DNA of 64,000 nt from assembly GCF_028617075.1 (NCBI RefSeq), contig NZ_JAQKGV010000011.1, positions 1-64,000 on the forward strand, in the 5' to 3' direction. A model generated the notes under the pieces. That model worked only from the letters and a program-made list of their open reading frames with translations, had not been told where the DNA came from and did no database searches. The stretch is from Rubrobacter calidifluminis. GTDB taxonomy: Bacteria; Actinomycetota; Rubrobacteria; Rubrobacterales; Rubrobacteraceae. Within the stretch, counting starts at the first letter, position 1, and the number at the start of each line of letters is the position of its first letter. Made by a program: the position numbers and the translations under genes. Below, in pieces: positions 45,840 to 63,314 of this stretch.

Positions 45840-46441
45840 GAGAAGTCCTCCTCCTCGAATCTCCTTTCCCAGTAGCCCAGGTAGAGCTCTTCGTCTGGGA
45901 TCTCGCCACAAGGGGACTCTTTATGGTCCGCAGTAGCAGACCAGCGGACCGCCATTGCGTCCGATATCGCCTCGAGCACAACCTCTATCGGGACTGCTAC
46001 GCTTACGGTGACGTATCCACGGTTTAAGGCTTCGACCTTGCGGTAGGTGCCAACCCACCGTCTGTGGTGCTCCCTCCAGGCGCGCCGGAGCAATTGGAAG
46101 GGCAACAGGTAGCATGTCCTGCTTGGGACGAACGCGTATGCTATGTAGTCGCAGGTGAGGTCTTTGGCTACCCAACCCGGTATCTGTCTTTTGCGGTCGC
46201 TCCAGTACTCGAGGCAAAAATCCGGATAGTCGCGCTCCCTGACCTTTTCGTCTACCGAGAGCACCGTCCCGTCTGCCAGGATTAGCCTGCGGTCTATTCC
46301 CGCGCGCTGTGCCCAGCCGTCTTGCCTGACACTCACCATCTCCTGGAGGTTGTGAAACGCTCTCTCGTAAACCTCGCGCCACCACGGTGCATCCTCGTAT
46401 GCATGCGACCTCTTCAGACTCTCCTCGAAGTCATGGACCAT
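45836..46441 (-). CDS. Predicted PD-(D/E)XK-like phage protein (201 aa)
   Basis: ATG 46441 overlaps the stop of the ParB-methyltransferase gene (ATGA). GIDRRLILADGTVLSVDEKV followed by RDYPDFCLEYWSDRK gives an acidic, E-x-K arrangement on adjacent strands that fits a restriction-type nuclease core. KDLTCDYIAYAFVPSRTCYL supplies the rest of the sheet. A nuclease role in phage DNA metabolism is likely but not proven. Confidence 0.65.
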   Translation of the reverse strand: MVHDFEESLKRSHAYEDAPWWREVYERAFHNLQEMVSVRQDGWAQRAGIDRRLILADGTVLSVDEKVRERDYPDFCLEYWSDRKRQIPGWVAKDLTCDYIAYAFVPSRTCYLLPFQLLRRAWREHHRRWVGTYRKVEALNRGYVTVSVAVPIEVVLEAISDAMAVRWSATADHKESPCGEIPDEELYLGYWERRFEEEDFS

Positions 46442-47724: not shown

Positions 47725-48049
47725 GAGAGACCTCGTACTTCCTCGCGAATGCGTCGAGCATCCTCATTTGCTCCTCCTTCTCCAGGTCCCGAACTGCGTA
47801 GTAGAAGGCGGCGACACGCGCCACGGGCCTACCCACCAGCTTCTCGAAGTTCTCCGCCGACTCCTCTTCCGAGAACCTGAGACGCCGCAGGAGGACGTGG
47901 GAGGCGAGCGCGGCCGAGGCCGGGACCATGAAGTCCTCCGAAGGGTTGCGCAAGAGGTCCTGCCGGAGCGCTGGGTCGAGCTTCGTGATATGCACCCAGG
48001 CCGTCCACGCCCTCCTGTGCTTTTCGGTGAGCGGGAGCCCGGTTCTCAT
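47717..48049 (-). CDS. Helical phage protein of unknown function (110 aa)
   Basis: ATG 48049 overlaps the stop of the zinc-ribbon gene (ATGA). It is largely helical (TEKHRRAWTAWVHITKLDPA, SAALASHVLLRRLRFSEEES, FYYAVRDLEKEEQMRMLDAF). No family is recognised. It overlaps the ParB-methyltransferase gene by eight bases. Confidence 0.6.
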   Translation of the reverse strand: MRTGLPLTEKHRRAWTAWVHITKLDPALRQDLLRNPSEDFMVPASAALASHVLLRRLRFSEEESAENFEKLVGRPVARVAAFYYAVRDLEKEEQMRMLDAFARKYEVSRG

Positions 48050-48201
48050 GAAGCCCTCCGGTACGCCTTTTTGGCGAGGCAGTAGCCGCAGCGGCGTGCC
48101 CACTTCGGCATGACCCTCCTCTCGCCGCACACCGGGCACAGCCTGAGCGTCCACGTCCCGCTCTTCTTTGGTCCCCACACGGGCTCTCTACGCCTCGGCA
48201 T
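48046..48201 (-). CDS. Small zinc-ribbon protein (51 aa)
   Basis: ATG 48201 to TGA 48046. It has CPVCG and, 14 residues on, CGYC, a small treble-clef or ribbon, with a basic N-terminus (MPRRREPVWGPKKSG). Such mini-proteins in phages usually bind nucleic acid or a host protein. The start overlaps the previous gene by 14 bases. Confidence 0.6.
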   Translation of the reverse strand: MPRRREPVWGPKKSGTWTLRLCPVCGERRVMPKWARRCGYCLAKKAYRRAS

Positions 48202-48775
48202 GCAAAGACACCTCCTCGAGCTCGCGGAGGGCGCTATCGAGCCTCTCTCGCGTCTCTTTGGTCGGGGCGTGCGCCGCGTCCTCCCTCTCTGCGTTTGCCA
48301 CGGTCGAGAGCGTGAGGCCTGCACGCGCGGCGAGCTCCCGGCGCGTGAGAGAGAGCGCACGCCTTCTCTCCCTTAAGGCCCGCCCCTGGGTGCGAGAGAG
48401 AAAGTCGAGCTCGGCAAGGAGCCTTCTCTCCTCTTCCTCCCGCTGGTGGACCGAGCAGAAAGGCTCGGGGTTATAGGCGGAGAGCTTTGTGTCGCAGCCT
48501 TCCTTCTTGCAGACCCTCGGCCCGTTTTTCTTCTTCTCCTCGTAGAGCCTTCTGAACTTCCGGCCCCTCCTCGAGTCGTCGTCGGAGTTCCGCACCCGCT
48601 CGCGGTAGAGCCGGTTCGTACACTCGCGGCAGCGGCTCTTCAGGTAGAGCCCTTCGCCTGTCCTCTCGAACGAAGAGAGCGCGAGCCACAGCCCGCAAGA
48701 GGTACACCTCTGCTGTACCACCTCCCCAGCCGGCGTCCGGATGGTGCGCCTCTCTTGGCTCTCCCCGGCACTCAT
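48188..48775 (-). CDS. Zinc-finger plus XRE helix-turn-helix protein (195 aa)
   Basis: From ATG 48775. The N-terminal half has CTSCGLWLALSSFERTGEGL..CRECTNRLYRE, an HNH-like zinc knuckle without a clear HNH core, then CKKEGCDTKL. The C-terminal half is XRE-like: LRERRRALSLTRRELAARAG, LTLSTVANAEREDA. It may regulate the early leftward operon. It is coupled to the tiny membrane-protein gene before it. Confidence 0.65.
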   Translation of the reverse strand: MSAGESQERRTIRTPAGEVVQQRCTSCGLWLALSSFERTGEGLYLKSRCRECTNRLYRERVRNSDDDSRRGRKFRRLYEEKKKNGPRVCKKEGCDTKLSAYNPEPFCSVHQREEEERRLLAELDFLSRTQGRALRERRRALSLTRRELAARAGLTLSTVANAEREDAAHAPTKETRERLDSALRELEEVSLHAEA

Positions 48776-48927
48776 GAGCGCCTCCAGAGCTCTTCCAGAG
48801 AGAGGTACTCTTCCTCCTTCTGTCGCTCGAGCTCGCTCGCGCGGCCTGAGGCCTCCAGGCAGCCGAGCACGAGTAGTGTTGCCGGCACGCAGAAGAGCGC
48901 GATGAGTGTAATGAGGGGGAAGATCAA
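48772..48927 (-). CDS. Tiny membrane protein (51 aa)
   Basis: TTG 48927 overlaps the stop before it (TTGA). One hydrophobic helix (IFPLITLIALFCVPATLLVL) is followed by a charged tail (ASELERQKEEEYLSLEELWR). It would insert in the inner membrane with the tail inside. Function unknown; such early phage proteins often act in exclusion. Confidence 0.55.
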   Translation of the reverse strand: MIFPLITLIALFCVPATLLVLGCLEASGRASELERQKEEEYLSLEELWRRS

Positions 48928-49115
48928 CTCTTCTCCTCCTTTCGGGACTTTTCGTAGTGCTCCCAGGCGAGAGCCTCGACCTTCTCCGGTGCGGCCCCAT
49001 GACGGCTCCAGGTAAAGACCACGTCTCCCCACGGCGCTAGAAGCTGGATCACCTCAGGGTCTGCGAGCAAAATGCGGTATCCGGGTGGGAGGTGGGGATC
49101 TTTCCTGAAGCTCAC
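48924..49115 (-). CDS. Small phage protein (63 aa)
   Basis: GTG 49115 has ggggggagag upstream. MSFRKDPHLPPGYRILLADP, then EVIQLLAPWGDVVFTWSRHG, and a lysine-rich end. It resembles a small alpha/beta protein. Function unknown. It is coupled to the tiny membrane-protein gene. Confidence 0.55.
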   Translation of the reverse strand: MSFRKDPHLPPGYRILLADPEVIQLLAPWGDVVFTWSRHGAAPEKVEALAWEHYEKSRKEEKS

Positions 49116-49155
49116 CTCTCCCCCCTCCCGAAGACCCCGGCCACGAGCTCCGTGC

Positions 49156-49311
49156 TCACCGCCTTTCACCTTCAGGAACACAGAGGACGCGTACCCTGCC
49201 GGTGCCGCCGCACGCCGGGCACACGGGAAACCGGGCCAATATGACCCCAGAACCACGACAGCCGAAACACTTCATCCCCCTACCGGCAGCCACCATACGC
49301 CGCCTTCTCAT
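49156..49311 (-). CDS. DnaJ-type zinc-finger mini-protein (51 aa)
   Basis: ATG 49311 behind gagggaggaatt. MKCFGCRGSGVILARFPVCP followed by ACGGTGRVRVLC is the CxxCxGxG zinc finger of DnaJ, here alone. It may bind a protein or a nucleic acid. The upstream neighbour is coupled by ATGA. Confidence 0.65.
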   Translation of the reverse strand: MRRRRMVAAGRGMKCFGCRGSGVILARFPVCPACGGTGRVRVLCVPEGERR

Positions 49312-49385
49312 AATTCCTCCCTCAGCTCCTCGACCTCCGCCTTGAACATCCGCTCCGTAGCCGCGAGCTCCTCGAGCATGCTCAT
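49308..49385 (-). CDS. 25-residue helical peptide
   Basis: MSMLEELAATERMFKAEVEE then LREEL, an amphipathic helix. Its start and stop both overlap neighbours as ATGA, which is the main support. It may be a coupling peptide only. Confidence 0.4.
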   Translation of the reverse strand: MSMLEELAATERMFKAEVEELREEL

Positions 49386-49648
49386 CCCCCACCTTCTGCG
49401 ATCTCGGCGAGCCTGACTCTCCCCCAGTCCGTGAGCGAAAGCCTGGCGACGCTCTCCCACCACAACCGTGCAATCCGCGCCGAGCCAGTGGTGCGCACCG
49501 AGTACGACGGCGACCCAGCCGAAAGCGCGAGCATCTGAAAGAAGTGCCCCTCTGGGCACCACATAAGGAGGCAGAACGTATCTCCCGAGAGCTCAGGCAC
49601 CTTCGCCACGGCCGCTTCCACGACCTCCGGGGATGGAAGGGCGGCCAT
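49382..49648 (-). CDS. Small phage protein (88 aa)
   Basis: ATG 49648 shares a base with the SWIM gene stop. AALPSPEVVEAAVAKVPELS, LLMWCPEGHFFQMLALSAGS, then a helical end with ARLWWESVARLSLTDWGRV. Family and function unknown. Confidence 0.55.
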   Translation of the reverse strand: MAALPSPEVVEAAVAKVPELSGDTFCLLMWCPEGHFFQMLALSAGSPSYSVRTTGSARIARLWWESVARLSLTDWGRVRLAEIAEGGG

Positions 49649-50085
49649 CACGCCGCCCCCTCGAAGCACTCATCGCAAAGGAGATCCCCTTCGAAATAGG
49701 AGAGAGGGAGATCTCCCGCCCACCTCGGGTCACCCGCCACGACCTCGTGCAGGTCGCGGTGCCGAAAGCGGTTCCCGCACCCGGCACACTCGGCCGTGGT
49801 GCCAAGCACAAAACCGACGGCGATTATGTGCTTGCACCGGTACCCGGCGTCGTCCCGGTGCCGGTACTGGTAGTCGGGGCAGGTGCACTCCTGCGACCTG
49901 TAGTCGACGCGGTAGGTGCCGCCCGAGGAGCTAGGCACCTCCCAGATCCCGCCCCCGAGCGCCCGAAAATCCGCCATCCGCTCCCGCGCCAGATCCACAC
50001 CGGCGAGAAGGCGGGGATGCCGCTCCCGAAGCGTTTCCCGCGAGACGTGCTCCTCCACGTTCCCCTGAACCGATATACTCTTCAC
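49648..50085 (-). CDS. SWIM zinc-finger protein, first gene of the early leftward operon
   Basis: 145 residues from GTG 50085. The SWIM motif CTCPDYQYRHRDDAGYRCKH (CxC..CxH) lies in the middle. Two further CxxC pairs follow (CAGCGN and CDEC). SWIM domains bind DNA or proteins. It is the first gene after the leftward promoter and operator, so it is probably among the first made on induction. Confidence 0.8.
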   Translation of the reverse strand: MKSISVQGNVEEHVSRETLRERHPRLLAGVDLARERMADFRALGGGIWEVPSSSGGTYRVDYRSQECTCPDYQYRHRDDAGYRCKHIIAVGFVLGTTAECAGCGNRFRHRDLHEVVAGDPRWAGDLPLSYFEGDLLCDECFEGAA

Positions 50086-50153
50086 TGATCCGGAAGCCTC
50101 CTTTCCGGGTCCGTGCTCCGGGCTGGTGGTGCAGCGCCGGAGCTTTTTTACTT

Positions 50154-50185
50154 CCGTTATACTTTATCACGTAACGTGATTAAAG
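50154..50185. promoter_or_regulatory. Operator 1 with early leftward promoter
   Basis: ATCACGT-A-ACGTGAT (50166-50180) is a perfect 7-bp inverted repeat. In the leftward strand it runs into TGA-TAAAGT, an extended -10 box for the 50085 operon. A half copy, GCGTGAT, lies in the extended -10 (TGA-TATAAG, 50227-50235) of the rightward repressor gene. The rest of 50086-50278 holds no supported gene. Confidence 0.65.
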
Positions 50186-50278
50186 TAAAGAGGGTTCGCG
50201 GTGCGTTATGTGTTATTTCTTTAGCGTGATATAAGATAATGAAAGCCATTGACCAACTTCACATAAGAGGTTATCAAC

Positions 50279-50689
50279 ATGATTGTGGCGGAGAGAAGGT
50301 CCAGGCGGGAGATGACCGAGTTTGGCAAGACGCTGAACAAGCTCATGGTCAACCATGAGGTGTTCGGTGGATGGCAGGAGCTGCGCCGAAGGCTGGACGC
50401 CGTGGGCTACCATATAGGGCAATCCCGGCTCTCGCAGTATCTCTACGGAGATAGGAACCCACAGGATCCGCAGAAATTATTCGACGCAATCTCTGCCGCC
50501 CTAGGGCTTACTGAAGAGGAAGAGATGCGCCTTGCGTATTCCTTCGCCTACCCAAAGTCCGGCCGGTCCAGAGGCGGGCTCTCCCAGGAAACCATTGACA
50601 AAGCTCGCAGGTTTGAGGGTAAGATAAGAAGCGAGCAGCAGGAGGATAAAGGGGAGAGCTCGCGTGGAGCTAAGGGTCGAGGAGTTTGA
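50279..50689 (+). CDS. Phage repressor-type helix-turn-helix protein (136 aa)
   Basis: ATG 50279 follows taagaggttatcaac. The first 80 residues are a helix-turn-helix: MTEFGKTLNKLMVNHEVFGG, ELRRRLDAVGYHIGQSRLSQ, YLYGDRNPQD. A basic C-terminal tail follows (GLSQETIDKARRFEGKIRSE). It is related along its length to the gene 51068-51388, which faces it. The pair with shared operators looks like a cI/cro-type switch; which one keeps lysogeny cannot be read. Confidence 0.75.
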   Translation: MIVAERRSRREMTEFGKTLNKLMVNHEVFGGWQELRRRLDAVGYHIGQSRLSQYLYGDRNPQDPQKLFDAISAALGLTEEEEMRLAYSFAYPKSGRSRGGLSQETIDKARRFEGKIRSEQQEDKGESSRGAKGRGV

Positions 50690-51071
50690 TGTAGGTCCCA
50701 GCGCAGATGGTTATTTTTTTGTTGATCACTCAGATGATCTTGCGGCTCTGGCGGTAAATCCTGAGCTTCCATCTTTTGTAAAGCGCTCGTGCGAGATACA
50801 AGCGCACGGGCACCTCAAGAAGCGTCCCCCGAAAGGCGGACGGCGATTCATCGTCGAGGTAGAGGAGCCAGAAGACCTCGACCCTAACGCCATCCTAGCA
50901 ATCCGCTCTGTGATCGAAGACCTCCAGCCCGGCTGGGTGGAGGAGGTCAAAGAGGCGTGCAGGCTCGCCAATCACCCGCGAGTCATTGCAGGCTGGTGCG
51001 AACTCTCCCTCTCGGTCGTGGTCGCGATAATCGAGAACCTTAAAGCTAGAGGGGAACTGCCTGAAGACTAG
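50664..51071 (+). CDS. Phage protein of unknown function in the switch region (135 aa)
   Basis: GTG 50664 overlaps the end of the repressor gene by 26 bases. The protein reads MELRVEEFDVGPSADGYFFV, then GGRRFIVEVEEPEDLDPNAI and LQPGWVEEVKEACRLANHPR. It is mixed alpha/beta with a helical end. No family was recognised. Its stop overlaps the convergent gene. Confidence 0.6.
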   Translation: MELRVEEFDVGPSADGYFFVDHSDDLAALAVNPELPSFVKRSCEIQAHGHLKKRPPKGGRRFIVEVEEPEDLDPNAILAIRSVIEDLQPGWVEEVKEACRLANHPRVIAGWCELSLSVVVAIIENLKARGELPED

Positions 51072-51388
51072 CCCCGGAAATTGGCTATGATCCGCTCCTC
51101 CCTTTCTGAGAACTTCCTCTGTCCATAGGCATAGGCCCACGCCAGGCGGCGTCTCTCCTCCTTAGTTAACCGCAGAAGCTCCGAGACGCAGGCCATGAAC
51201 AACGGATCGACATTGCGTTCACCATTGAGGAGGTAGCTCAACCGGGGCTGGCTAATCTTGTACCCACCCTTGTTTAGAAGGCGCAGCAGGTCTTGCCTTC
51301 GCTCAATCCCTCTCGTAAGCATAAGGCTATAAAGAGTGCGGCCAAACTCGGACATTTGCTGGGTTCCCTGCCTACTCTCAGTGAGCAT
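51068..51388 (-). CDS. Second repressor-type helix-turn-helix protein (106 aa)
   Basis: MSEFGRTLYSLMLTRGIERR, DLLRLLNKGGYKISQPRLSY and LLNGERNVDPLFMACVSELL form a helix-turn-helix akin to that of 50279-50689. The true start may be the internal ATG (QQMSEFG). It is read leftward from an extended -10 box (TGA-TAAAAT) that overlaps operator 2, so it probably regulates itself and the rightward promoter. Confidence 0.75.
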   Translation of the reverse strand: MLTESRQGTQQMSEFGRTLYSLMLTRGIERRQDLLRLLNKGGYKISQPRLSYLLNGERNVDPLFMACVSELLRLTKEERRRLAWAYAYGQRKFSEREERIIANFRG

Positions 51389-51719: not shown

Positions 51720-51769
51720 GGCAGGGATTTGGCATGATCGCCATCGCATCCAACGGGAGAAAGAGATGA
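51719..51769 (+). pseudogene. cas6: Detached 3' end of cas6
   Basis: The codons read WQGFGMIAIASNGRKR and stop at TGA 51767-51769. They hold the QGFGM half of the Cas6 glycine-rich loop. Joined to 3966-4682 they give a 255-residue Cas6. The stop overlaps the cas8b ATG as ATGA, proof that the two were adjacent before the prophage came. Confidence 0.92.
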
Positions 51770-53787
51770 TAGAGAGCATCTACCAGATCGGGCGCGCATT
51801 GCTCGAGGAGAGCGGTGGAGGACGGCGGGCGGTCCTGGAATCGCTCGCCGCAGCACCCCCACGGGACAGAAAAGACGAATCATACGTCGCCATCCTGAAG
51901 CTGGACTCCCGGAGGCTCTCGCTAGATGTCGAGCTTCGAGAGCTGGACAGCCAGAAGAACACCGCCGCGAGGTACCTGTGGCTCGGCAACGCCCCAGGCA
52001 ACGACCCGCAGGACCGTCTCACCTTGGACAACCTGGGTTATCTCGTCTCCCAGACCATCCCTAACCTGCTCGGCGAAGGGAGGATAGATCCAAAGAGCGA
52101 TCTGTACTCAAAGCTGAAGAACCTCCGGGAGAAGCTCTACATCGACCTCGGAGAGCCGGGAGAGCTCGGCATAAAAGGAGGCGGCACCTACCAGCGCAAC
52201 CGGCGGCTCTGGGATCTCGGCAGGCTCGGCATCCCGGGTCCCTCCCGTGAAGACCTGAGAGATGAGATAAGGGGCGGCACGAACCCCAAGAACATCCCCC
52301 AGAGGGTGGTGAAGGCGCTGCGAGACCACTTCCCGGAGATCCCTGAGAGGGGCGTGCTCTTCACGCTCGAGCTCGACGGCGATCTTCTCGTGGACGATCC
52401 AGCCTACCACACGTACCTGGAGCGCAGGTTCGTGGATAGCGCCTTCACCGGGAATCAGACGGGACGCTGCCACCTGAGCGGCGAGTACGGCCCGGTCACA
52501 ACAGACATGACGCGCTTCAGGTTCAAGTACTACATAACGGACAAGTTGGGCTTCGCCTCCGGAGCCACGAAGAAGGGTTTCACCTCCAACTTCGCGCTCT
52601 CGAAAGAAGCGTACCGGGCGCTGCTCGTCGGGGAGAGGTTCGTGGGAAGGGAGCTCGGCTTCAGCTTCGCCGGGGCGAGGGGGTACATGATCCCGGACCT
52701 CTACACCGTGGAGATCCCGCGCGGGTTCCCGGAGGCACTCGTGCGCACGCTCAGGAGCATCCGCAACAGGACGCTCTTCGACATCGGGAGGGTGCAGGCC
52801 GGGGAGCTGGACGAGGAGCTCGAAGAGTTCAGAGAAGAACACCTTGCGAGCGGGTACATGATCAACCTGCTCTTCTACAAACAGAAGCAGGCCAAGTTCG
52901 AGGTCCTTAGGCTCATCCAGGACATTCCGTCCTACCGCCTGGAGGAGCTGCGCGCGCAGGGGTTCGAGACGGGGCGGCTGTGGGAGGAGCTCTACGGAGA
53001 CGAGGCGAGAGACCTCACCCTACAGCAGATCTACTACCTCATCCCAGTACGAAAAGTCCGCAAGCCTGATGGGAAAGTCGAATACTTGAACAAGAAGATC
53101 CTGGCCTTCTACCACACCCTCATCTCCGGCGGCCTCATAGACCGCAAGGAGCTCACGGACGGCTTCATGGAGCTGGCGCGGGCCTATCGCTTCGGCAACA
53201 CGGGATCGTACCAGGTGAGCGCCCCAAAGGAAGGCATGGAAGACCTCACCCTCGTCCGCTATCTCGCGCAGACCAACCTGTTGCTCGCGTTCTTGCGGGA
53301 TCTCGACCAGCTGAAGGAGGAAGAAGTGTCGCAAGAGTACCTGGAGAGGCTCTCCCTCGACGAAGTGGAGAAGGAGTACCTGAAGAGGCTCGGCTACGAC
53401 GAGCAGCAGGCGGCCCTGTACCTGCTCGGCGCTCTGGTCGCCGAGATCGCGAACGCCCAGTGGCGGCTCGGTCCCGAGGGCCGGGGTGGGGAGAAGACGA
53501 TCCTGAACAAGATCAACTACCAGGGCATGACCCTCCCCCGCGTCCAGCGCCTGGCCACCGAGCTCTTCGACAAGCTCCGCCAGTACCGCTACACCGACCG
53601 CTCCGGCGAGCGCCGACCGCTCCTGCAGGGCCGCAACGAGGCCATCTTCGCCCAGGCGCAGGAGCTCCTGACCAGAAACCAGCGAGGGTGGCGTCTCACC
53701 CCCTCAGAGAACGTCTACTACCTGCTGAGCGGTTACTCGCACCGTACCTTCAGGGCGATGACCGCGAGAGAGAAGCAGCCCGCCTAG
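51766..53787 (+). CDS. cas8b: Cas8b (Csh1/TM1802-like), large subunit of type I-B Cascade
   Basis: A 673-residue protein. The start MIESIYQIGRALLEESGG, the zinc-type CHLSGEYGPV segment, FRFKYYITDKLGFASGATKK and the late SENVYYLLSGYSHR are typical of the TM1802/Csh1 family of I-B large subunits that recognise the target's PAM. Its ATG overlaps the cas6 stop. In the lysogen it has lost the cas6-side promoter and may depend on phage transcription. Confidence 0.85.
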   Translation: MIESIYQIGRALLEESGGGRRAVLESLAAAPPRDRKDESYVAILKLDSRRLSLDVELRELDSQKNTAARYLWLGNAPGNDPQDRLTLDNLGYLVSQTIPNLLGEGRIDPKSDLYSKLKNLREKLYIDLGEPGELGIKGGGTYQRNRRLWDLGRLGIPGPSREDLRDEIRGGTNPKNIPQRVVKALRDHFPEIPERGVLFTLELDGDLLVDDPAYHTYLERRFVDSAFTGNQTGRCHLSGEYGPVTTDMTRFRFKYYITDKLGFASGATKKGFTSNFALSKEAYRALLVGERFVGRELGFSFAGARGYMIPDLYTVEIPRGFPEALVRTLRSIRNRTLFDIGRVQAGELDEELEEFREEHLASGYMINLLFYKQKQAKFEVLRLIQDIPSYRLEELRAQGFETGRLWEELYGDEARDLTLQQIYYLIPVRKVRKPDGKVEYLNKKILAFYHTLISGGLIDRKELTDGFMELARAYRFGNTGSYQVSAPKEGMEDLTLVRYLAQTNLLLAFLRDLDQLKEEEVSQEYLERLSLDEVEKEYLKRLGYDEQQAALYLLGALVAEIANAQWRLGPEGRGGEKTILNKINYQGMTLPRVQRLATELFDKLRQYRYTDRSGERRPLLQGRNEAIFAQAQELLTRNQRGWRLTPSENVYYLLSGYSHRTFRAMTAREKQPA

Positions 53788-53808
53788 AAGAGAGAAAGGA
53801 GAGAAGGC

Positions 53809-54753
53809 TTGGCCATCCACGACGGAGACATCCTCTACCTCTACGACGCTAAGCTCACCAACCCAAACGGCGACCCGGACGACGAGAACCGCCCGCGCAT
53901 GGACGAAGCAACCGGGCGCAACCTCGTCTCCGACGTCAGGCTCAAGCGCTACCTCAGGGACTACTGGCTCGACGCCGGGGAGGACATCTGGGTCAGGCGC
54001 ACCGAGCAGGACGAGACGACCAGCTCCAAGCAGCGCATGAGCGTGCTGCTTTCGGACTACAACCAGGAGAACGGAGCGAACCTCACCGAGAGACAGGCGC
54101 GCCAGAGCCGGGAGTTCAAGGACTGGCTTCTCAGAAGGCTGCGAGACGTGCGGCTCTTCGGGGCGACGATGCCGATGGAGAACACCTCGGTCACCTTCAC
54201 CGGCCCGGTGCAGTTCAGCTGGGGATACTCGCTGCACCGGGTCGAGATTAACAACTCCGCCACCATCTCGAGCCACTTCGCGGGCAGAGAGAACGAGTAC
54301 GGCACCTTCGGCAAGGACTGGCGGGTGCACTACTCGCTGCTCGCTTTCTACGGCATCGTGAGCAAGAGCCGCGCCCGACACACCGGGCTCACCGACGAGG
54401 ATCTCACCGCGCTCGACGAGGCGATGGTGAGGGCCATCCCGCAGCAGGCGACGACGAGGAGCAAGATCGGGCAGACCCCGCGGCTCTACCTGCGCGTCGA
54501 GTACGAGGACGACTCTGCTCTACGGCTCGGGGACGTGCGCGAGGACCTCGCCCTCGACCCCAAAGACGGCAAAACCACAGACACCCTGCGCGACATCCGG
54601 GACTTCTCGATAGGCTTCGATCGGGTGCTGGAGAGAGTGAGGGCGGTCGAGGGCTCCATCGGAAGAGCCCGTCTCTGGAGCCACCCGGAACTCGGGAACG
54701 CCTTCGAGCGCGGCCTGCGGGAGATACTCGACGATCGGCTGGAGACCCTCTAG
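53809..54753 (+). CDS. cas7: Cas7 (Csh2-like) backbone subunit
   Basis: A 314-residue protein. LYLYDAKLTNPNGDPDDENR, MDEATGRNLVSDVRLKRYLR and VTFTGPVQFSWGYSLHRVE are signatures of the Cas7/Csh2 family. Cas7 coats the crRNA spacer in Cascade. It starts at TTG 53809 behind gaaaggagagaag and lies 21 bases after cas8b. Confidence 0.9.
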   Translation: MAIHDGDILYLYDAKLTNPNGDPDDENRPRMDEATGRNLVSDVRLKRYLRDYWLDAGEDIWVRRTEQDETTSSKQRMSVLLSDYNQENGANLTERQARQSREFKDWLLRRLRDVRLFGATMPMENTSVTFTGPVQFSWGYSLHRVEINNSATISSHFAGRENEYGTFGKDWRVHYSLLAFYGIVSKSRARHTGLTDEDLTALDEAMVRAIPQQATTRSKIGQTPRLYLRVEYEDDSALRLGDVREDLALDPKDGKTTDTLRDIRDFSIGFDRVLERVRAVEGSIGRARLWSHPELGNAFERGLREILDDRLETL

Positions 54754-54756
54754 GCG

Positions 54757-55524
54757 ATGCCGCAAAACACACTCATCGTCTTCGACCTCTGCGGGGCGTA
54801 CGGTATGTTCCGCAAGTTCTACACCAACTCCTCCTCGCTCTCATATCCCTTCCCGCCCCGCACGACCGTCGCGGGGCTCATCGCCGGGATGATGGGCTAC
54901 GAGCGCGACGCGTATGCTGAAGACCTCGGCCTCGGCCGCTGTCATATAGCGCTCTCCGTGCGGGTGCCGGTGCGGCGGGTGATGCAGCAGGTCAACTACC
55001 TGATGACCGAGGGCCACGTCTGGCAGAAGGGAGCCGGCGGCTTCGACGGGAGCAGGGGGCCAATACAGGTGCCGGTGGAGTGGGTCTTCCCGGAGGTGGG
55101 CTACAGAGAGCTCCGCTACCGCATCTACGTGACGCATGAGGACCGGGGGTGGCTCGAACGTCTCGGAGAGGTTCTGGAAGGCGGCACTCCCGTCTATCCG
55201 CCCTACCTGGGAATGACCGAGTGTCCGGGCCGGGTGGAGCACGTGAGGAGCACGGAGGACTGGAGCCTCGGAAGGCGGGAAGAGGAGCTCCCCATCAGTA
55301 CCGTGCTCCCGGCCTCCGCGCTCTCAGGCCCGCCTCGCCTGGAGGAGGGAACCCAGATCGTCAAGGAGCGCACCCCGCTCTCCCTTGACGAAAGTCGGCG
55401 GCTAATCGCCGCGGGCGATCTCCTTTACAACCGTGCGGGTCCGCACATAACCGCCCGGCTGGAGAGCGAGGTCTTCGAGGTCTCCTACTCGGGGATCCGC
55501 GAGTACGGGGTGTTCATGCGATGA
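54757..55524 (+). CDS. cas5: Cas5 subunit of type I-B Cascade
   Basis: A 255-residue protein. Start LIVFDLCGAYGMFRKFYTNS and YPFPPRTTVAGLIAGMMGYE are the Cas5 RAMP signature, with CHIALSVRVPVRRVMQQVNY after it. Cas5 binds the crRNA 5' handle. It begins three bases after cas7 and overlaps cas3 by four bases. Confidence 0.88.
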   Translation: MPQNTLIVFDLCGAYGMFRKFYTNSSSLSYPFPPRTTVAGLIAGMMGYERDAYAEDLGLGRCHIALSVRVPVRRVMQQVNYLMTEGHVWQKGAGGFDGSRGPIQVPVEWVFPEVGYRELRYRIYVTHEDRGWLERLGEVLEGGTPVYPPYLGMTECPGRVEHVRSTEDWSLGRREEELPISTVLPASALSGPPRLEEGTQIVKERTPLSLDESRRLIAAGDLLYNRAGPHITARLESEVFEVSYSGIREYGVFMR

Positions 55525-58004
55525 GGTTCCTGGCGCGTCCGGCGCGGGGAGGGAGATCGGAGGAGCTCCTGAAAGACCACCTCGCGGCGGTAGCCCGGAT
55601 GGCGGAGAGAAAAGTGCTCACGCTCCCTATCTCGGGCCGAGCGCACCTCGCCGCTCTCGCCCGGCTCTGCGGGCTCACCCACGACTTCGGCAAGTACACG
55701 ACCTACTTTCAGGAGAAGCTTCCACCGCTGGAGAAGAAGCCCCCCAGAGAAGAGTACTCCCACCACTCCTTCGTCTCCGCGCTCCTTGGGGCGTTCGTCG
55801 CTAAAAGCCGGCATCCTGAGGATGTCGAAGCCCCGCTTCTCGTCTACCTCGCGATCCACCGCCACCACGGCCACCTCGTGACCCCGCAGGAGGTGCTGCC
55901 CCGCAAGGAGGACCTGAGAGACGCCCCGACCTTCGCGGGTCTTTCGTCGGGTCTCCGCAGAGAGCTCGCCGCCGTCGAGGCTCAGCTAGAAGACATGCGC
56001 GGGGCGCACAGGGAGCAGATAGTCTCCGAGCTGGCAGAGCTTGGGGTTCCGGAAGCAGAAGAGTTTCTATCGCTAGAGAGCTGGTGGAAACTCTTGCCGG
56101 AGATGCGCAGGTCGTGCCGGAGGCTTCTCAAAGGAGGAGATCCGGAGGCAACCCGTCGCTACTGGCGGCTGCTCCTCCTCTTCTCCGCGCTCATAGACGC
56201 CGACAAGCACGTCTCGGCAGCGGCCGCCGGAGAGCCCTCCCGCCACTCCATCCCACCCTCGCTGGTGGAAGATCACGTGCGAAGCCTGAAGGATCACGAG
56301 GCGCCCGGATCTCCCAACGCGCGGCGGCTCGCCGGGATGCGGGATGAGATCCGCGAGGAGTGCGCCCGGAGGATCGAGGAGAGACCGCTCGATGAGCTCT
56401 ACCCGGCCATTCTCAGCCTCACCGCGCCCACCGGCTCGGGGAAGACGCTCGCCGCGCTGGAGACGGCGCTCAGGCTCAGGGAGCGCATCCGGAAGGAGAC
56501 CGGGCATCTGCCGCGCGTCATCTACGCCCTCCCCTTCGTGAACATCATCGAGCAGAACGCCGATGTGATCGAGAGCGTGCTGCGCCGGTGTCCGGGCTTC
56601 GACGCTTCTCCCTATGACCACCTCCTGAGAAGCCACCACCTCGCCCCGCTCACCGGAGACGAGAACGAAGAAGAAGCGGTGGAAGACAAGCTCCTCTCCA
56701 CGGAGGCGTGGGAGCCGGAGATCGTGGTGACCACCTTCGTCTCGCTCTTCGAGAGCCTGCTCACGAACCGCAACCGGCCGCTCAAGCGGCTGCACAACGT
56801 CGCCGGGAGCATCCTGGTGCTGGACGAGGTGCAGAGCATACCCTACGAGCAGTGGAGGCTCGTGGGGCACGTCCTCACGACGCTCGTGAGCGACCTCGGT
56901 TGCACCGTGATCCAGATGACTGCGACCCGCCCCCACATCCTTCCCGGTGCCAAAGAGCTGCTAAAGAACCCCGAGCAAAACTTCGCCGGGCTCTCCCGGA
57001 CGCGCCTCGTTCCCCACCGGAACGTGCGGACCATCGAGGAACTCGCGGACTTCATCGAGGACATTAAATCCCCAAACCGCTCTCTGCTCGTGGTGCTGAA
57101 CACCATCTCGAGCTCCATAGAGCTCTACCGGATGCTGAAAGAACGCCTCGACCTCTCTCCATACCGGGAGTACGGCAGGGAGGGAGCGGACGCCTCCATC
57201 TTCTACCTCTCGACCAACATTACCCCCTGGCAGCGTTCGCGGCGGGTGCGGCTGCTCAAGAGGTGCATGAGACGGGGCGCGAAGCCGCTCGTCGTCTCCA
57301 CGCAGGTGGTCGAGGCCGGGGTGGATCTCGACTTCGACGAGGTCATAAGAGACCAGGGACCGCTTGATTCCATCGTGCAGGTGGCCGGGCGATGCAACCG
57401 GAGCGGCGATATCCCCACCCCAGCTCCGGTGTACGTCGTCTTTCTGGAGAACGAGAACTCGCGTCCCTTCGCCGAGATGGTCTACGGACGGGTGCTCCCC
57501 CTCATCTCCCGCGAGATGCTGCAAGAAGAGGTTGGGGAGCCGGAGCTCCACGCTCTCGTCGAGCGCTACTTCGCCACTGTGGAGGAACGCAAGAGCGACG
57601 ACTTCTCGATCGAATACATCGCCGCCGTAAGGGAGCTCGAGTTCGACCGCCGGGAGGGTGAGCACATCACCATAAGCCGCTACCGCTTCATACAGGAGGA
57701 GCTCGCGACCATGCCGATGCTCGTGGAGATGAACGAGAGAGCCGCGGAGGCCGTAGAGAGCCTTGCGAGCCTCTACCGTGAGAAAGAGAAGAACCGCACC
57801 AGGATCCGGCGCGCCTACCGGGAGGTTGCACCGTTCACCGTAACCCCCACCGTGAACCGGCTGCGCAAGAACTTCCCCCCACAGCACCCCGAGATCCCGG
57901 AACACTTCTACCTCTCGCTCGACGAGATCCGCTCGAGCGGCTCGACGTTCTACGACATTGAGACGGGATACAAGTGGGGCGAAGACGAGGCGATGCTGCT
58001 TTGA
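55521..58004 (+). CDS. cas3: Cas3 nuclease-helicase with N-terminal HD domain
   Basis: An 827-residue protein. The HD nuclease has H54-D55 (GLTHDFGKYT) and HHSFVSALLGAF, with HRHHGHL later. The helicase has TAPTGSGKT near residue 302, LDEVQS near 434 (DEVQ for DEAH), TATRPHI, and QVVEAGVDLDFD with GRCNRSG. Cas3 is recruited by Cascade and degrades target DNA. Both domains look intact. ATG 55521 overlaps cas5. Confidence 0.95.
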   Translation: MRFLARPARGGRSEELLKDHLAAVARMAERKVLTLPISGRAHLAALARLCGLTHDFGKYTTYFQEKLPPLEKKPPREEYSHHSFVSALLGAFVAKSRHPEDVEAPLLVYLAIHRHHGHLVTPQEVLPRKEDLRDAPTFAGLSSGLRRELAAVEAQLEDMRGAHREQIVSELAELGVPEAEEFLSLESWWKLLPEMRRSCRRLLKGGDPEATRRYWRLLLLFSALIDADKHVSAAAAGEPSRHSIPPSLVEDHVRSLKDHEAPGSPNARRLAGMRDEIREECARRIEERPLDELYPAILSLTAPTGSGKTLAALETALRLRERIRKETGHLPRVIYALPFVNIIEQNADVIESVLRRCPGFDASPYDHLLRSHHLAPLTGDENEEEAVEDKLLSTEAWEPEIVVTTFVSLFESLLTNRNRPLKRLHNVAGSILVLDEVQSIPYEQWRLVGHVLTTLVSDLGCTVIQMTATRPHILPGAKELLKNPEQNFAGLSRTRLVPHRNVRTIEELADFIEDIKSPNRSLLVVLNTISSSIELYRMLKERLDLSPYREYGREGADASIFYLSTNITPWQRSRRVRLLKRCMRRGAKPLVVSTQVVEAGVDLDFDEVIRDQGPLDSIVQVAGRCNRSGDIPTPAPVYVVFLENENSRPFAEMVYGRVLPLISREMLQEEVGEPELHALVERYFATVEERKSDDFSIEYIAAVRELEFDRREGEHITISRYRFIQEELATMPMLVEMNERAAEAVESLASLYREKEKNRTRIRRAYREVAPFTVTPTVNRLRKNFPPQHPEIPEHFYLSLDEIRSSGSTFYDIETGYKWGEDEAMLL

Positions 58005-58492
58005 GCATCACGGGCACGCTCGTTCAGTCTTACGCGGTCTGCCCCCGGCAGGCGTGGCTGATGGCGCGTCAGATGGAGCCCGAGAGGGAGTTCGAGCTGC
58101 TGGTGGAGGGGAGGCTCAACCAGCTCGAGCACTACGAGAGGTCGATGAAGGAGATCGAGCTGCCGGGGATCAAACTCGACCGCGTGCGGCGCGAAGGAGG
58201 CCGGCTCGTTCTCTCCGAGGTGAAGAAGTCCACCCGTTACCTGCCTGCGGCGCGGCTGCAGGTCGGCTACTACCTGCTGCGGCTGCGGGAGGAAGGGATC
58301 GAGGCCAGCGGCGAGATCCTGGTGCCCAAAGAGCGGTTCCGCGAGGAAGTCGAACTTACACCGCAACTCGAAGAAGACGTGCGCGAGACGGTAAAGAAGC
58401 TGGAGCAGTTGCTGGTGCGTCCGCTCCCCCCGCCGGCGGAGCGCATCCGCTACTGCAGCAAGTGCGCCTACGCGGAGTTCTGCTGGTCTTAG
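58001..58492 (+). CDS. cas4: Cas4 nuclease
   Basis: 163 residues from TTG 58001, overlapping the cas3 stop (TTGA). The first Fe-S cysteine is in YAVCPRQAWLMA, the nuclease motif runs VLSEVKKSTRYLPAARLQVG, and the other cysteines are in YCSKCAYAEFCW. Cas4 trims and orients new spacers together with Cas1-Cas2, which are not in the window. Confidence 0.9.
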   Translation: MSITGTLVQSYAVCPRQAWLMARQMEPEREFELLVEGRLNQLEHYERSMKEIELPGIKLDRVRREGGRLVLSEVKKSTRYLPAARLQVGYYLLRLREEGIEASGEILVPKERFREEVELTPQLEEDVRETVKKLEQLLVRPLPPPAERIRYCSKCAYAEFCWS

Positions 58493-58504: not shown

Positions 58505-60235
58505 GTGAAGAAGCTCGTTTGCGTCGTCGGAACAGGAGAATACAAGCAAGTCAACTACTTATTCGGCACGTGGCGACGGCATACCAATCTGGCTCCGGTC
58601 GCGATAGGCTGCTGCGTAATCGGCGCGGGGGAAGACCTTGAGCTCGTCGCCCTCCTCACCCGAAGGGCCAGAGATAGATATGAGGAAGAGCTGTGCTCCG
58701 AGGCCGAACGGCAAGGGTGGGCCTACACACCCGTCGACATTCCGGACGGGAAATCCGAAGCGGAGCTCTGGGAGATCTTCGAGAAGTTCGGGGAACACCT
58801 GAAGGAAGGCGACGAGGTCATCCTGGACCTCACCCACGGCTTCCGCCACCTCCCGGCCCTGCTCCTCTCGGCGGTTCAGTACCACGCCGCGCGCAAGAGA
58901 ATAAAAACCCTCGGCGTCTACTACGGAGCCTACGAGGCCCGGGACGAGAGCAACAACGTCCCCATCTTCGACCTCACTCCGCTCGTGGATTTGCCCGAAT
59001 GGTCCTACGGGGTCAGGCTCTTCTCCGACTACCTGCTCCCCGGCCCGCTGGGTGAGATGCTGGAGCGCATCCAGCGCAGATCCCACCAGCGCAGCGGCGA
59101 GCAGCCGTTCACCCGTCTGCAGCAGGTTGGTCGCGCGTTGTTCGATCTCGAAGCGCCCCTCGCCTCCGGCATGCCGCTCGAGGCCGGCTTCGAAGCTCAC
59201 CGAGCGTTAGAAAAGGCGCGCTCAGCAGAGGAGGAGCTCTCCCGCCTCGCTCCGCTCAGGGGCTTCTGGGAGGAGCTGAAAGGGCAGCTCACAAGCTTCG
59301 CTCTCCCGGAGCCAGAAGCACCAAAGGGAAACAAACCAAAGAAAGGCATGATCCTGACGATCGAAGAGCTGGAGCGCCAGGCGCACCTTGTCGACGGGTA
59401 CCTCGCCATCTCGGACCTCCGGGCTGCGGCGACCCTGATGCGGGAGCTCATCGTCTCGGCGGTCATACTCCACACACAGGACCCGAAACGCTGGCTGGAG
59501 GGGGAAGAACGTCAGAGAGCGGAGCGCCGGCTCGGGGTGATCGCCTCGTGGAACAGGGGAGCGTTCCAGCTCAAGAAGCTTCTCTCCAAAGAGCAGCAAG
59601 AGCTGGCCACACTCTGGGATCAGGTCAGAGAGAGGCGCAACGCCCTCGCCCACGCCGGGATGCGCGAGGACATGGTGAAGTTCGACGACAAAGCCCTGCG
59701 TGAGATCCACGCAAAGATAAAAGAGAACCTGTGCAACCCTGGCTTCTGGAGCACAGAGGTCGAACGCAAGGACGAGCGCTGGCTCGTCTCCCCGCTCGGA
59801 ATGACCCCCGGCGCGCTTTATACCGCCATCGTGCAGGAGAGCCCGGACCATCTGTTCATCATCACGAGCCAGAAAGCCAAACAGAAGGTCGGCGAGATCC
59901 TGACCGAAGCCGGCCGCGAAGACCTCGAAGTCTCCTGCCTTATCCTCGACGATCCCTTCAACGGTTTCGACGAAGCCCGAGAGAAGGCCGAGGAGGCCCT
60001 GAAAGAACACGGACCGCGCTGGGCCGCAGCGCAGGAGGTCATCGTCAACCGCACCGGCGGCACCACGTGTCTCGGCTGGGCCGTGGAACGCATCGAGGCC
60101 GCGCTCCGAAGAGACCTCGGCCTCGAGTCCCGCACCGTAGCCTGCATAGACCGTAGAGACCCCGAAGAGCAACGCAAGCGGCCATACGTAAGGGGCGAGG
60201 TCATCGACATAACGGAAAGAGGAGAGGAGGAGTGA
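58505..60235 (+). CDS. CARF-HEPN protein with a second, C-terminal CARF-like domain
   Basis: 576 residues. The N-terminal CARF domain is TM1812/Csx2-like (CVVGTGEYKQVNYLFG, VILDLTHGFRHLPALLL) and would sense cyclic oligoadenylate. The middle is helical and contains R378-NALA-H383, the RNase motif of HEPN domains. From about residue 430 a second Rossmann-like part begins: WLVSPLGMTPGALYTAI, HLFIITSQKA, VIVNRTGGTTCLGWAVERIE, which has the shape and the TGGTT loop of CARF domains. It sits between cas4 and cmr1, and the GGDD-bearing Cas10 next to it could make its ligand. Confidence 0.8.
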   Translation: MKKLVCVVGTGEYKQVNYLFGTWRRHTNLAPVAIGCCVIGAGEDLELVALLTRRARDRYEEELCSEAERQGWAYTPVDIPDGKSEAELWEIFEKFGEHLKEGDEVILDLTHGFRHLPALLLSAVQYHAARKRIKTLGVYYGAYEARDESNNVPIFDLTPLVDLPEWSYGVRLFSDYLLPGPLGEMLERIQRRSHQRSGEQPFTRLQQVGRALFDLEAPLASGMPLEAGFEAHRALEKARSAEEELSRLAPLRGFWEELKGQLTSFALPEPEAPKGNKPKKGMILTIEELERQAHLVDGYLAISDLRAAATLMRELIVSAVILHTQDPKRWLEGEERQRAERRLGVIASWNRGAFQLKKLLSKEQQELATLWDQVRERRNALAHAGMREDMVKFDDKALREIHAKIKENLCNPGFWSTEVERKDERWLVSPLGMTPGALYTAIVQESPDHLFIITSQKAKQKVGEILTEAGREDLEVSCLILDDPFNGFDEAREKAEEALKEHGPRWAAAQEVIVNRTGGTTCLGWAVERIEAALRRDLGLESRTVACIDRRDPEEQRKRPYVRGEVIDITERGEEE

Positions 60236-61413
60236 TGGAGAAGATAGAGGCCACCTTCCGCGTCGTCACCCCGATGTTCATGAGCGGGGCCGATCAGTCA
60301 AAAGCCGAGCTGAGGCTCCCCTCCATAAAGGGTGCTTTGCGCTTCTGGTGGCGCGCCCTCGCCTGGAGCAGATACGGCGACCTGCAGAAGATCCGGGAAG
60401 AAGAAACCCGCCTCTTCGGCAGCACCGACGAGGGACAAGCAGCAGTGCTCCTGAAGCTCTTTTCTCAGACCATGCCAAAGGTCCTGGAAAAGGGACAGAT
60501 ACTCAAAGATGGAGAAAACGTCGTAGGAGAAGGAACCCGGTATTTAGGTTACGGCGTTATGGAAGCATTCGCGAGCAAGAATAGAAGCACGCAGGCAGGA
60601 CAGCTGATCAGACCATGCTTGCTTTCTCCGTTTGAGTTTACGCTCGAGCTTCGATTCGGAAGGCTTGCCACAGAGCAGCAAATAAGTTCATCAATTGAAA
60701 CGCTCAAGTTGATGGGTTTAGTAGGCAGCTTGGGGAGCAAGTCCCGCAAAGGATACGGCAGCCTCACGCTAACGAAACTGAGCTACAGCAACGAACCATG
60801 GAGTCCGCCAAGTGACGTTCATAAGATGGTTGAGTCTCTGACAAGGTTTTCGAAAGACTCTCCTCACCCTCTGTTCACAGCGATCTCCCGAGACTCCCGT
60901 TTCATTGTAGTCGAAGGCCGCGAAGGGGAATCAACGCTGAGCCTGTTGGACAGGGTGGGCCGCGAGATGATGTTCTATCGCAGCTGGGGACGCAACGGTA
61001 CGGTACTGGGATCGCCTAGCGAGAAGAATTTCAAGGATGACCACGATTTGATGAGCGGTCTCAAAACGAACATCAAGTATCCAAGACGCGTCGTATTCGG
61101 GCTTCCTCACAACTACGGAAAGCAAAGGCACCTCCAAGTTACACCGGCATACCACGACAGGCGCGCCAGTCCTCTCTTCATTCACATACACCAGACCAAG
61201 AACGCGGACGCTCCTCTGGCGGTACTGAGCTTCCTGCCTTCAGCTTTCTTGCCCCAGAACGAACCTCTGAAGCTGCTGAATACGACTGCGCTTCCCCGAT
61301 ACGACAAGTCGTTCTGGAAGCCCATAGACGATTTTCTGGAACGCATGAAAGGTACACACCAACGGCCTCCACGCAAACGTCGCCAGCAATTCGCCAACGT
61401 AGTGGAGGTGTAA
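60235..61413 (+). CDS. cmr1: Cmr1 RAMP protein of type III-B
   Basis: About 392 residues from ATG 60235, overlapping the CARF gene stop (TGATG; the GTG at 60232 is an alternative). IEATFRVVTPMFMSGADQSK, LPSIKGALRFWWRALAW and LMGLVGSLGSKSRKGYGSLT are the Cmr1 signature motifs with the glycine-rich loop. Cmr1 caps the 3' side of the Cmr complex. Codon use in the middle is more AT-rich than its neighbours. Confidence 0.9.
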   Translation: MEKIEATFRVVTPMFMSGADQSKAELRLPSIKGALRFWWRALAWSRYGDLQKIREEETRLFGSTDEGQAAVLLKLFSQTMPKVLEKGQILKDGENVVGEGTRYLGYGVMEAFASKNRSTQAGQLIRPCLLSPFEFTLELRFGRLATEQQISSSIETLKLMGLVGSLGSKSRKGYGSLTLTKLSYSNEPWSPPSDVHKMVESLTRFSKDSPHPLFTAISRDSRFIVVEGREGESTLSLLDRVGREMMFYRSWGRNGTVLGSPSEKNFKDDHDLMSGLKTNIKYPRRVVFGLPHNYGKQRHLQVTPAYHDRRASPLFIHIHQTKNADAPLAVLSFLPSAFLPQNEPLKLLNTTALPRYDKSFWKPIDDFLERMKGTHQRPPRKRRQQFANVVEV

Positions 61414-61418
61414 AGATA

Positions 61419-63314
61419 GTGAATAAAGACAACAAACTGCTCCACTTCACCCTCGGTCCGGTGCAGGGGTTCGTCTCTCAGGCGCGGCGCACGCGCGATC
61501 TCTGGTCCGGCTCTTTCCTCCTCTCTTATCTCTCCGGACAGGCAATGCGCGCGGTGCTCGATGGAGGCGGGAAGGTGATATTCCCTGAAGTCGGTGACCA
61601 ACCGAGCATCACCGACCCGCTCCTCGCCGCGATCATGGGGCACCCGCTGTCTGGCAATGAAAACCCGCAGACCGGCTCGCTACCGAATCGCTTCAAGGCG
61701 GAGGTGCCGGACGACTTCGATCCGAAGAGATGCCGTGACGCCGTCCAGAGCAGGTGGCAAGAGATCGCCGATGTGGTCTGGGAACGCTACGTCGTGCTGG
61801 TGGCGGGCCATGGCAAAGGCACGAAGGAGATCTGGGAGCGGCAGGTAGAGAGCTTCTGGGAGATGGGCTGGGTGCTGGGAGAAGACCCCGGCGACCGCAG
61901 CGACCAGCGCTGGCTCGACCTTCGCAAGAACTGGCGCACCCACCATCCACCCGCCGAGCCGGGAGACAAGTGCACCCTGATGGGGAGCTGGCAGGAGATC
62001 TCCGGGTACGTGAGGGCGCGAGAGTGCAAGTCGCAGGAGGAGTTCTGGGATGCGCTTCGCCGAAAGAGCGGCGAACTCAACCTCGGAGAGCACGAGCGGC
62101 TGTGCGCCATCGCGCTCATCAAGCGGCTCTTCCCAGGCGTCGCGGAGGATGCGATCGGCTGGAAGCTCGAGGCGGGCACCTGGCCCTCGACACCGTACAT
62201 GGCGGCGGTTCCCTGGATCGAGGAGGCCTACGAAAAGCCGGAGGCCAAAGAGTATCTGTGCATACTGGAGGAAGGGGACCGGCTAAGCTGGGCCTTCGGC
62301 GAGTACAACACGAAGCTTCCCTGCCTCGAGAAAGCCGGCAGGTTCGCCAGGCTCGACGGCAATCTCTTCCACAAGACGGCGCTCGACAACGAGCGAGCCA
62401 TGCCCGAGCTCTCCGCGCAGAAACGAGAGAAGCTGCTCGACGTCCTGAGCAAGCTGAACAGAGCAGTGGGGCACCCGGCATCGCCTTTCTACGCGCTGCT
62501 CTTGATGGACGGAGACCGGCTCGGGAGCCTGCTACAGCACGATCAGATAGACCCGAAAGACGTCTCCCGGGCGCTGGCGCGCTTCACCGAAGGGGTCGAT
62601 GAGATCGTCGGGGAGCACTGCGGCAGGACGGTCTACGCCGGAGGCGACGACGTACTCGCGCTCCTGCCGCTCGACAGGGCCCTGAGCGCGGCGGAGAAGC
62701 TCAGGGAGCGTTTCCTGAAATCCTTCGACGCGGTGCTCGGCGGGCGAAGGCCGAAAGGAGAGGACGGCGAGCCACTCAGAACCACAATCTCCGCCGGGCT
62801 CGTCTTCGCCCACTACAACACCACCCTGCGCTCGGTGATGCGGGAGGCACACCGGCTGCTCGACGAGGTCGCCAAGGACAGAAACGGCCGCGACAGCCTC
62901 GCGGCTAGCGTCCTCACCGGCAGCGGGCGCACCGTCGAGTGGGTCTCCGGCTGGGAAGAAAGCCCCGGAGGACCCCTCATCACAAGACACCTGCAGAACC
63001 TCGCGTCCTCCTTCGACGAGCAGTTCGCCGGCCGCTTCTTCTACAACGTGCGCGAGCGTTTTGGTGTTCTCACCGGGGAGGACGATCACACGCTCATACC
63101 CGGCCTCGACGCCGAAAAACTCCTCGTCGCCGAGTACCTGAAGAACCGGGAGCGCGAAGGAGACAGAGAGGCGGCAGAGGCGGTCATCGAGCAACTCCTG
63201 AAGGTGTGCCGCGAACGCCGGGGAGGCGAGCCGGCCAACGAAAAAACGCTCAACGTCTCAGGAGCGATGCTGGTGCGCTTCCTCGCGACCAAGGGAAGGG
63301 GGGTGGAGAGGTGA
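61419..63314 (+). CDS. cmr2: Cmr2 (Cas10) with GGDD cyclase motif, no HD domain seen
   Basis: 631 residues from GTG 61419. The N-terminal part (LHFTLGPVQGFVSQARRTRD, WSGSFLLSYLSG) is the Cmr2 start. LLMDGDRLGSLL and YAGGDDVLALLP (GGDD at 408-411) are palm-domain motifs needed to make cyclic oligoadenylate. It is shorter than most Cmr2 and no HD nuclease motif is seen, so it may signal without cutting DNA. The CARF gene upstream is the likely receiver. Confidence 0.92.
   Translation: MNKDNKLLHFTLGPVQGFVSQARRTRDLWSGSFLLSYLSGQAMRAVLDGGGKVIFPEVGDQPSITDPLLAAIMGHPLSGNENPQTGSLPNRFKAEVPDDFDPKRCRDAVQSRWQEIADVVWERYVVLVAGHGKGTKEIWERQVESFWEMGWVLGEDPGDRSDQRWLDLRKNWRTHHPPAEPGDKCTLMGSWQEISGYVRARECKSQEEFWDALRRKSGELNLGEHERLCAIALIKRLFPGVAEDAIGWKLEAGTWPSTPYMAAVPWIEEAYEKPEAKEYLCILEEGDRLSWAFGEYNTKLPCLEKAGRFARLDGNLFHKTALDNERAMPELSAQKREKLLDVLSKLNRAVGHPASPFYALLLMDGDRLGSLLQHDQIDPKDVSRALARFTEGVDEIVGEHCGRTVYAGGDDVLALLPLDRALSAAEKLRERFLKSFDAVLGGRRPKGEDGEPLRTTISAGLVFAHYNTTLRSVMREAHRLLDEVAKDRNGRDSLAASVLTGSGRTVEWVSGWEESPGGPLITRHLQNLASSFDEQFAGRFFYNVRERFGVLTGEDDHTLIPGLDAEKLLVAEYLKNREREGDREAAEAVIEQLLKVCRERRGGEPANEKTLNVSGAMLVRFLATKGRGVER

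Follow-up and report, generated by a model that had tools for sequence, protein, structure and literature searches.

The gene that heads the type III-B operon in the window (the whole stretch of DNA that we analysed, 64,000 nucleotides from Rubrobacter calidifluminis) encodes, as judged from its sequence, a Csx1-type protein with a second CARF domain at its C-terminus, giving the architecture CARF2-HEPN-CARF. The effector is probably a cyclic-oligoadenylate-activated RNase, predicted to cut RNA when the alarm molecule binds at its front CARF. By analogy with related fusions, we see about an even chance that the C-terminal CARF (C-CARF) is a second cA4 site that restrains the cA4-activated HEPN RNase, acting either as a ring nuclease or as a sink.

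Architecture of the effector

Both the open reading frame (GTG start, 576 aa; Table 1) and the domain observation made for it in an earlier note on this DNA hold up. Three PADLOC models of the CARF2--CARF_HEPN_CARF type match the protein, PDLC01839 ahead of its sisters PDLC01838 and PDLC01840. The PDLC01839 match (E 2.7e-172) runs end to end, covering residues 3-569 of 576 and profile positions 2-517 of 518; with a CARF2-type CARF, a HEPN domain, a C-terminal CARF and a full-length model match, the effector has every defining feature of this family. No second gene of this family turned up in the assembly, and an orthologue, L003, scores higher against the family than the window protein does. 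A frame or annotation artefact could be ruled out, given that four full-length orthologous genes and a fifth, partial one occupy the same place before cmr1.

Table 1. Features of the effector gene and its neighbours (coordinates in the window)
Feature	Coordinates	Strand	Remarks
cas4, directly upstream of effector	57974..58492	+	last of type I-B set
CARF2-HEPN-CARF effector gene	58505..60235	+	PDLC01839 match; orthologues L003, L005, L006
N-terminal CARF, CARF2/Csx2 type, residues 1-180	58505..59044	+	TIGR02221; PDB 8y75/8y7g Csx1-Crn2 E 6.6e-10
N-CARF motif I, G9-T10-G11	58529..58537	+	motif defined as in PMC10018336
N-CARF motif II, D108-LTHGF-R114	58826..58846	+	H111 aligns with Csx1-Crn2 H129
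Linker and HEPN domain, residues 181-414	59045..59746	+	PADLOC CARF_HEPN models stop near residue 407-410
HEPN catalytic motif (RX4-6H), R378-NALA-H383	59636..59653	+	sequence position
C-terminal CARF, residues about 424-570	59774..60214	+	profile matches, fold matches; purifying selection
C-CARF motif I, S429-PLGM-T434	59789..59806	+	S434 in L003
C-CARF motif II, N515-RTGGT-T521	60047..60067	+	T521 where most CARFs carry K
C-CARF family segment, D549-RRDPEEQRKRP-Y561	60149..60187	+	alanine probing of three PADLOC models
cmr1	60232..61413	+	TIGR01894 E 1.9e-16; overlaps effector gene end by 4 bases
cas10/cmr2	61419..63314	+	TIGR02577 E 3.8e-48; GGDD intact at 62640-62651

The N-terminal CARF (N-CARF) is Csx2-like, as the earlier note had proposed: NCBIfam TIGR02221 scores 87.1 bits over residues 47-176, its curated cut-off being 76.25, and TIGR02549, which describes the DxTHG motif, reaches 36.2 bits against a cut-off of 21. 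N-CARF is homologous to the solved cA4-activated Csx1 of Csx1-Crn2 (8y75/8y7g), in which H129 is needed for cA4 binding, its mutation abolishing activation by cA4 (PMC7293037). The HEPN motif lies where the note had placed it; R378, N379 and H383 are invariant in eight of eight Csx1-type proteins, and the only other RX4-6H string in the effector, at residue 188, precedes the HEPN core.

One-CARF relatives encoded on plasmids (from Thermomicrobium, Thermus, Rhodothermus, Allomeiothermus and Pseudanabaena) lack C-CARF and end after HEPN, at about residue 400 of the window protein. Searched alone, the C-terminal stretch P0002 (residues 430-576) matches the three CARF_HEPN_CARF models (E 9e-52, 2e-32 and 3e-28), the N-terminal CARF portions of CARF1 effector models (E 5.2e-10 and 4.2e-9), the N-terminal CARF of CARF4 (Card1/Can2 type; E 1.6e-5) and further Csx1 models, one of them at E 1.1e-6. 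The CARF1, CARF4 and Csx1 models represent independent families, and P0002 aligns with approximately profile positions 3-102, which are their CARF part. Judged by these matches, the last ~145 residues, in which the earlier note had discerned a second CARF-like unit, are a genuine, CARF1-like CARF of another family than the CARF2-type N-CARF, and the NRTGGTT loop that it had singled out (N515-RTGGTT-521) coincides with CARF motif II. Since the domain matches CARF families and the one-CARF relatives stop after HEPN, it is a CARF that has been joined on behind a standard Csx1.

Structure prediction agrees in ranking. AlphaFold models of the C-terminal part, built from a single sequence and from two sequences with no real alignment, are of low confidence (pLDDT 57 and 52), and for models below pLDDT 60 we used only the ranking of fold matches. 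CARFs came first in both PDB fold searches, with Cam1 (probability 0.97) and TtCsm6 (0.91) as the top matches and the ring nucleases Sso2081 and Sis0811 among the first ten in the search topped by TtCsm6; no match passes E 0.001. That this part is some other Rossmann-like domain, as the weak models and the Pfam matches, all below cut-off, might suggest, is very improbable, since several independent CARF families match it significantly over their CARF portion and CARFs head both fold searches. Tandem duplication of one CARF was rejected, because N-CARF and C-CARF belong to different families (CARF2 versus CARF1-like) and show no similarity in a profile comparison (probability 0.5%, each profile being built on few sequences). 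A C-terminal Crn2, Csx3 or Csx16 ring nuclease was also rejected, as no such match was found.

Conservation and family-specific residues of the C-terminal CARF

Full-length copies of the effector number four (window, L003, L005 and L006), the latter three being 63-86% identical to the window copy; together with a partial copy (L007/L028), all come from one bacterial family. There was no further full-length match in 397 genomes of the phylum. A peptide-pattern scan of genome contigs with P0001 gave no match, the same scan with the C-terminal alignment returned only a partial Rubrobacter locus (L023), and no relative was found in the viral contigs and phages scanned. Relative to L003, C-CARF is the slowest-changing part of the protein (67% identity, dN/dS 0.305; N-CARF, 63% and 0.362; linker/HEPN, 60% and 0.332) and is under purifying selection similar to that on N-CARF and linker/HEPN.

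The copies also differ from one another in an uneven way. Between the window protein and L006, from another genus, C-CARF is 97% identical and N-CARF 79%; over the comparisons of the window with L005 and L006 the values are 95-97% for C-CARF and 79% for N-CARF. N-CARF and HEPN are identical in L005 and L006 despite the origin of these two copies in different genera. This mosaic pattern of sequence identity suggests exchange of gene parts among related bacteria.

To describe what the family prefers in C-CARF, we scored single-residue variants against the PADLOC models, the bit differences being indicative only. The T521K variant loses 4.0, 2.4 and 3.0 bits in the three CARF_HEPN_CARF models and gains ~3-4 bits in CARF1, CARF4 and most other Csx1 models. 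Since threonine is preferred over lysine at this position in three of three family models, loss of the motif II lysine looks like a trait of the whole CARF_HEPN_CARF family and not a local change. G432-M433-T434 matches the motif I pattern G-x-T/S, and T434A is nearly neutral in the family models. Alanine at G432, N515, D549, R551, E555, Q556 or Y561 costs about 3 to 6 bits in each of the three models. The last five of these residues belong to the segment D549-R-R-x-x-x-E-Q-x-x-x-x-Y561, which lies beyond the region alignable with CARF1 and CARF4.

In CARF ring nucleases, motif I is represented by G9-T10-S11 of Sso2081 and T11 of EiCsm6, and the motif II lysine by K106 of Sso2081 and K137 of TtCsm6 (PMC10018336, PMC10897365, PMC7101355). 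C-CARF, with T521, lacks the motif II lysine that defines the Crn1 type. TtCsm6 holds the ring with R172, R173 and E179, of which R173 and E179 sit on a mobile loop, and the distance of these residues behind motif II is roughly like that of the DRRxxxEQxxxPY segment. Because of this similar spacing, it is plausible, by analogy with TtCsm6, that the conserved segment stands in for the motif II lysine.

The CRISPR locus

The effector gene follows a type I-B set, cas8b-7-5-3-4 (51766-58492). The type III-B operon that it heads continues with cmr1, cas10/cmr2 and cmr3, which starts within the window; past the window end come cmr4 and cmr6, with a small ORF between them at the place of cmr5, and then a CARF-RelE gene, cas1b and a CRISPR array. 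From its intact GGDD, Cas10 is likely the alarm-molecule synthase and looks active. The CARF-RelE gene (G000:C11:66768-67889, or L002:8769-9890), which belongs to the Cami1 family (PDLC01934, E 1e-127) and closes the Cmr operon, retains in its CARF the two motifs of ring nucleases (CGTS and NLTGGFK). Four of the five Rubrobacter-type loci carry this gene, and the order effector-cmr1-cas10-cmr6-CARF-RelE-cas1 is kept in all four full loci; in L028, which lacks the gene, cmr6 is directly followed by cas1. The Cas10 cyclase motif at this latter locus (L028:1366-3165) reads GGED, not GGDD.

Among the neighbours, Cmr1 is only ~42% identical to its counterparts in the near relatives (L025 and L026), whose Cas10 and Cmr6 reach 88-96%, and on this account cmr1 seems exchanged or fast-evolving. 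Upstream of the CRISPR locus, 43616-51388 includes genes for a D12-class adenine methyltransferase and a ParB/MT-A70 fusion that could belong to a mobile element or prophage. A 386-aa minus-strand ORF (44751-45911) within this region contains three copies of the 21-base repeat GTACTTTTTTCCGGTGGGTCT (45409-45480), which encodes a short PPEKST-like peptide repeat.

As for dedicated ring nucleases, the sole match to PF09651 (Crn1 family) in five genomes is the CARF-RelE gene; the downstream 373-aa CARF gene, considered as a stand-alone Crn1, is this same Cami1-family effector and was rejected. PF08960 (Crn2) had no match in the genome, with a positive control in B. subtilis. The searches of the five genomes covered Crn1, Crn2, Csx3 and Csx16 and gave no match to the last three, those for Csx3 and Csx16 having no positive control.

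Possible roles of the second CARF

The Cami1 (CARF-RelE) family, to which the other effector of the operon belongs, is activated by cA4. Effectors in one locus usually share one activator, two ring sizes being rare (PMC11229360). Given this trend, the Cami1-type gene and the homology of N-CARF to Csx1-Crn2 (H111 corresponding to H129), cA4 is the likely activator of N-CARF and HEPN. In the scheme that we propose, Cas10 would make cA4 upon target recognition, and cA4 would bind the dimeric N-CARF around D108-LTHG and open the HEPN site, which would then cut RNA indiscriminately. C-CARF would act as a restraint, whether as an attached ring nuclease that cuts the ring or as a sink that holds it and sets a threshold; we rank cutting slightly ahead of holding.

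We favour such a restraining role because the C-terminal slot on the CARF2-HEPN chassis is otherwise taken by ring-nuclease families (Csx3, Csx16, Csx20 and Crn2): in PADLOC, CARF2-HEPN is also found fused to CSX3, CSX16 and CSX20. C-CARF is nearest to CARF1, a family that takes in the self-cutting Csm6 group (PMC12669027); its motif I keeps the G-x-T/S seen as T11 in Csm6 and S11 in Crn1; the conservation of DRRxxxEQxxxPY in the family and the purifying selection on C-CARF would fit too. We also count in favour the lack of Crn2, Csx3 and Csx16 matches in the five genomes, with the limits on controls given above, although the operon may need no further off-switch, since Cami1 family members cut cA4 themselves, with a ring nuclease activity of their own (PMC12409355). 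Against it, C-CARF has T521 where Crn1 and TtCsm6 need the motif II lysine to cut, which argues against a Crn1-like mechanism, and Thr434 of motif I is only weakly favoured in the CARF_HEPN_CARF models. The evidence for catalysis is therefore mixed, with motif I retained and the motif II lysine lost. It would be a bolder and rather doubtful step to propose that C-CARF represents a class of its own among CARF ring nucleases, in which D549-R550-R551...E555-Q556...Y561 would serve instead of the motif II lysine and make the RNase self-limiting within one chain.

The same lysine loss could point elsewhere. Both CARFs might sense, with C-CARF reading the same ring again or another ring size and helping to activate HEPN: the two domains come from different families and are both conserved, a CARF without the motif II lysine would suit a non-cutting sensor with altered binding, and Cam1, the top fold match for one of the models, is a sensor for which ligand cutting is not known. 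We hold this two-input arrangement to be somewhat unlikely, for N-CARF and HEPN are complete as in one-CARF Csx1 and would need no second activator, and the sister fusions carry ring-nuclease families in the same position; a sensor for another ring size in particular is possible but less likely, such pairs being rare within one locus (PMC11229360). Family-wide loss of the lysine might also mean that C-CARF no longer binds cyclic oligoadenylate and serves in dimerisation, in higher-order assembly or in contacts with another partner or nucleotide. This seems improbable to us, as a structural domain would not obviously need G432, N515, T517, D549, R551, Q556 and Y561, all conserved in the three models. 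A second cA4 site that restrains the RNase is the reading that we prefer.

The architecture as such is already known: three CARF_HEPN_CARF models are present in PADLOC-DB 2.0.0 (2023), and a 2014 paper had reported two CARF domains fused to each other (PMC4012209). Of the two-CARF interpretation in the earlier note, the part that stands is that the tail is a CARF, which we assign to another family than N-CARF, while its novelty is not supported; the single CARF that it took as the usual design does apply to most Csx1, the two-CARF version having been catalogued by PADLOC. In the open-access literature we found no characterised CARF-HEPN-CARF protein or experimental study of the architecture and, in a limited search, no description of the family-wide lysine loss or of the DRRxxxEQxxxPY segment.

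The effector and the PADLOC family agree in their three domains and in the domain order and differ in none of the features compared. The one-CARF Csx1 proteins (TIGR02221 family) have N-CARF, HEPN, DxTHG and RX4H in common with it but stop at ~400. Csm6-2 (PMC11229360) also unites two CARFs with HEPN in a single chain; it is a fused Csm6 dimer (CARF-HEPN-CARF-HEPN) activated by cA6 (PMC11229360) or, according to a 2026 paper, by cA5 (PMC13187428), whereas the effector described here has one HEPN and CARFs of different families and ends six residues beyond C-CARF, with no second HEPN past it. Can1 likewise combines two CARFs in one effector but has PD-(D/E)xK nuclease parts and no HEPN. Crn1 and TtCsm6 share with C-CARF the CARF fold and, as far as the letters go, the G-x-S/T of motif I, their motif II lysine being absent here. 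Csx1-Crn2 of Marinitoga (8y75, 8y7g) is the characterised self-limiting precedent on the Csx1 chassis (PMC7293037): it has the same CARF2-HEPN chassis, an extra C-terminal unit and a type III-B locus with CARF-RelE, but its C-terminal unit is the cA4-binding Crn2 (DUF1874), to which P0002 bears no similarity. If the tail CARF reads another ring size, the effector would be a rare two-input one. If it cuts or traps the alarm molecule, the family would present a second, evolutionarily separate design by which the Csx1 chassis becomes a self-timing CRISPR RNase, and would show a CARF to be capable of the task that falls to Crn2 in Csx1-Crn2.
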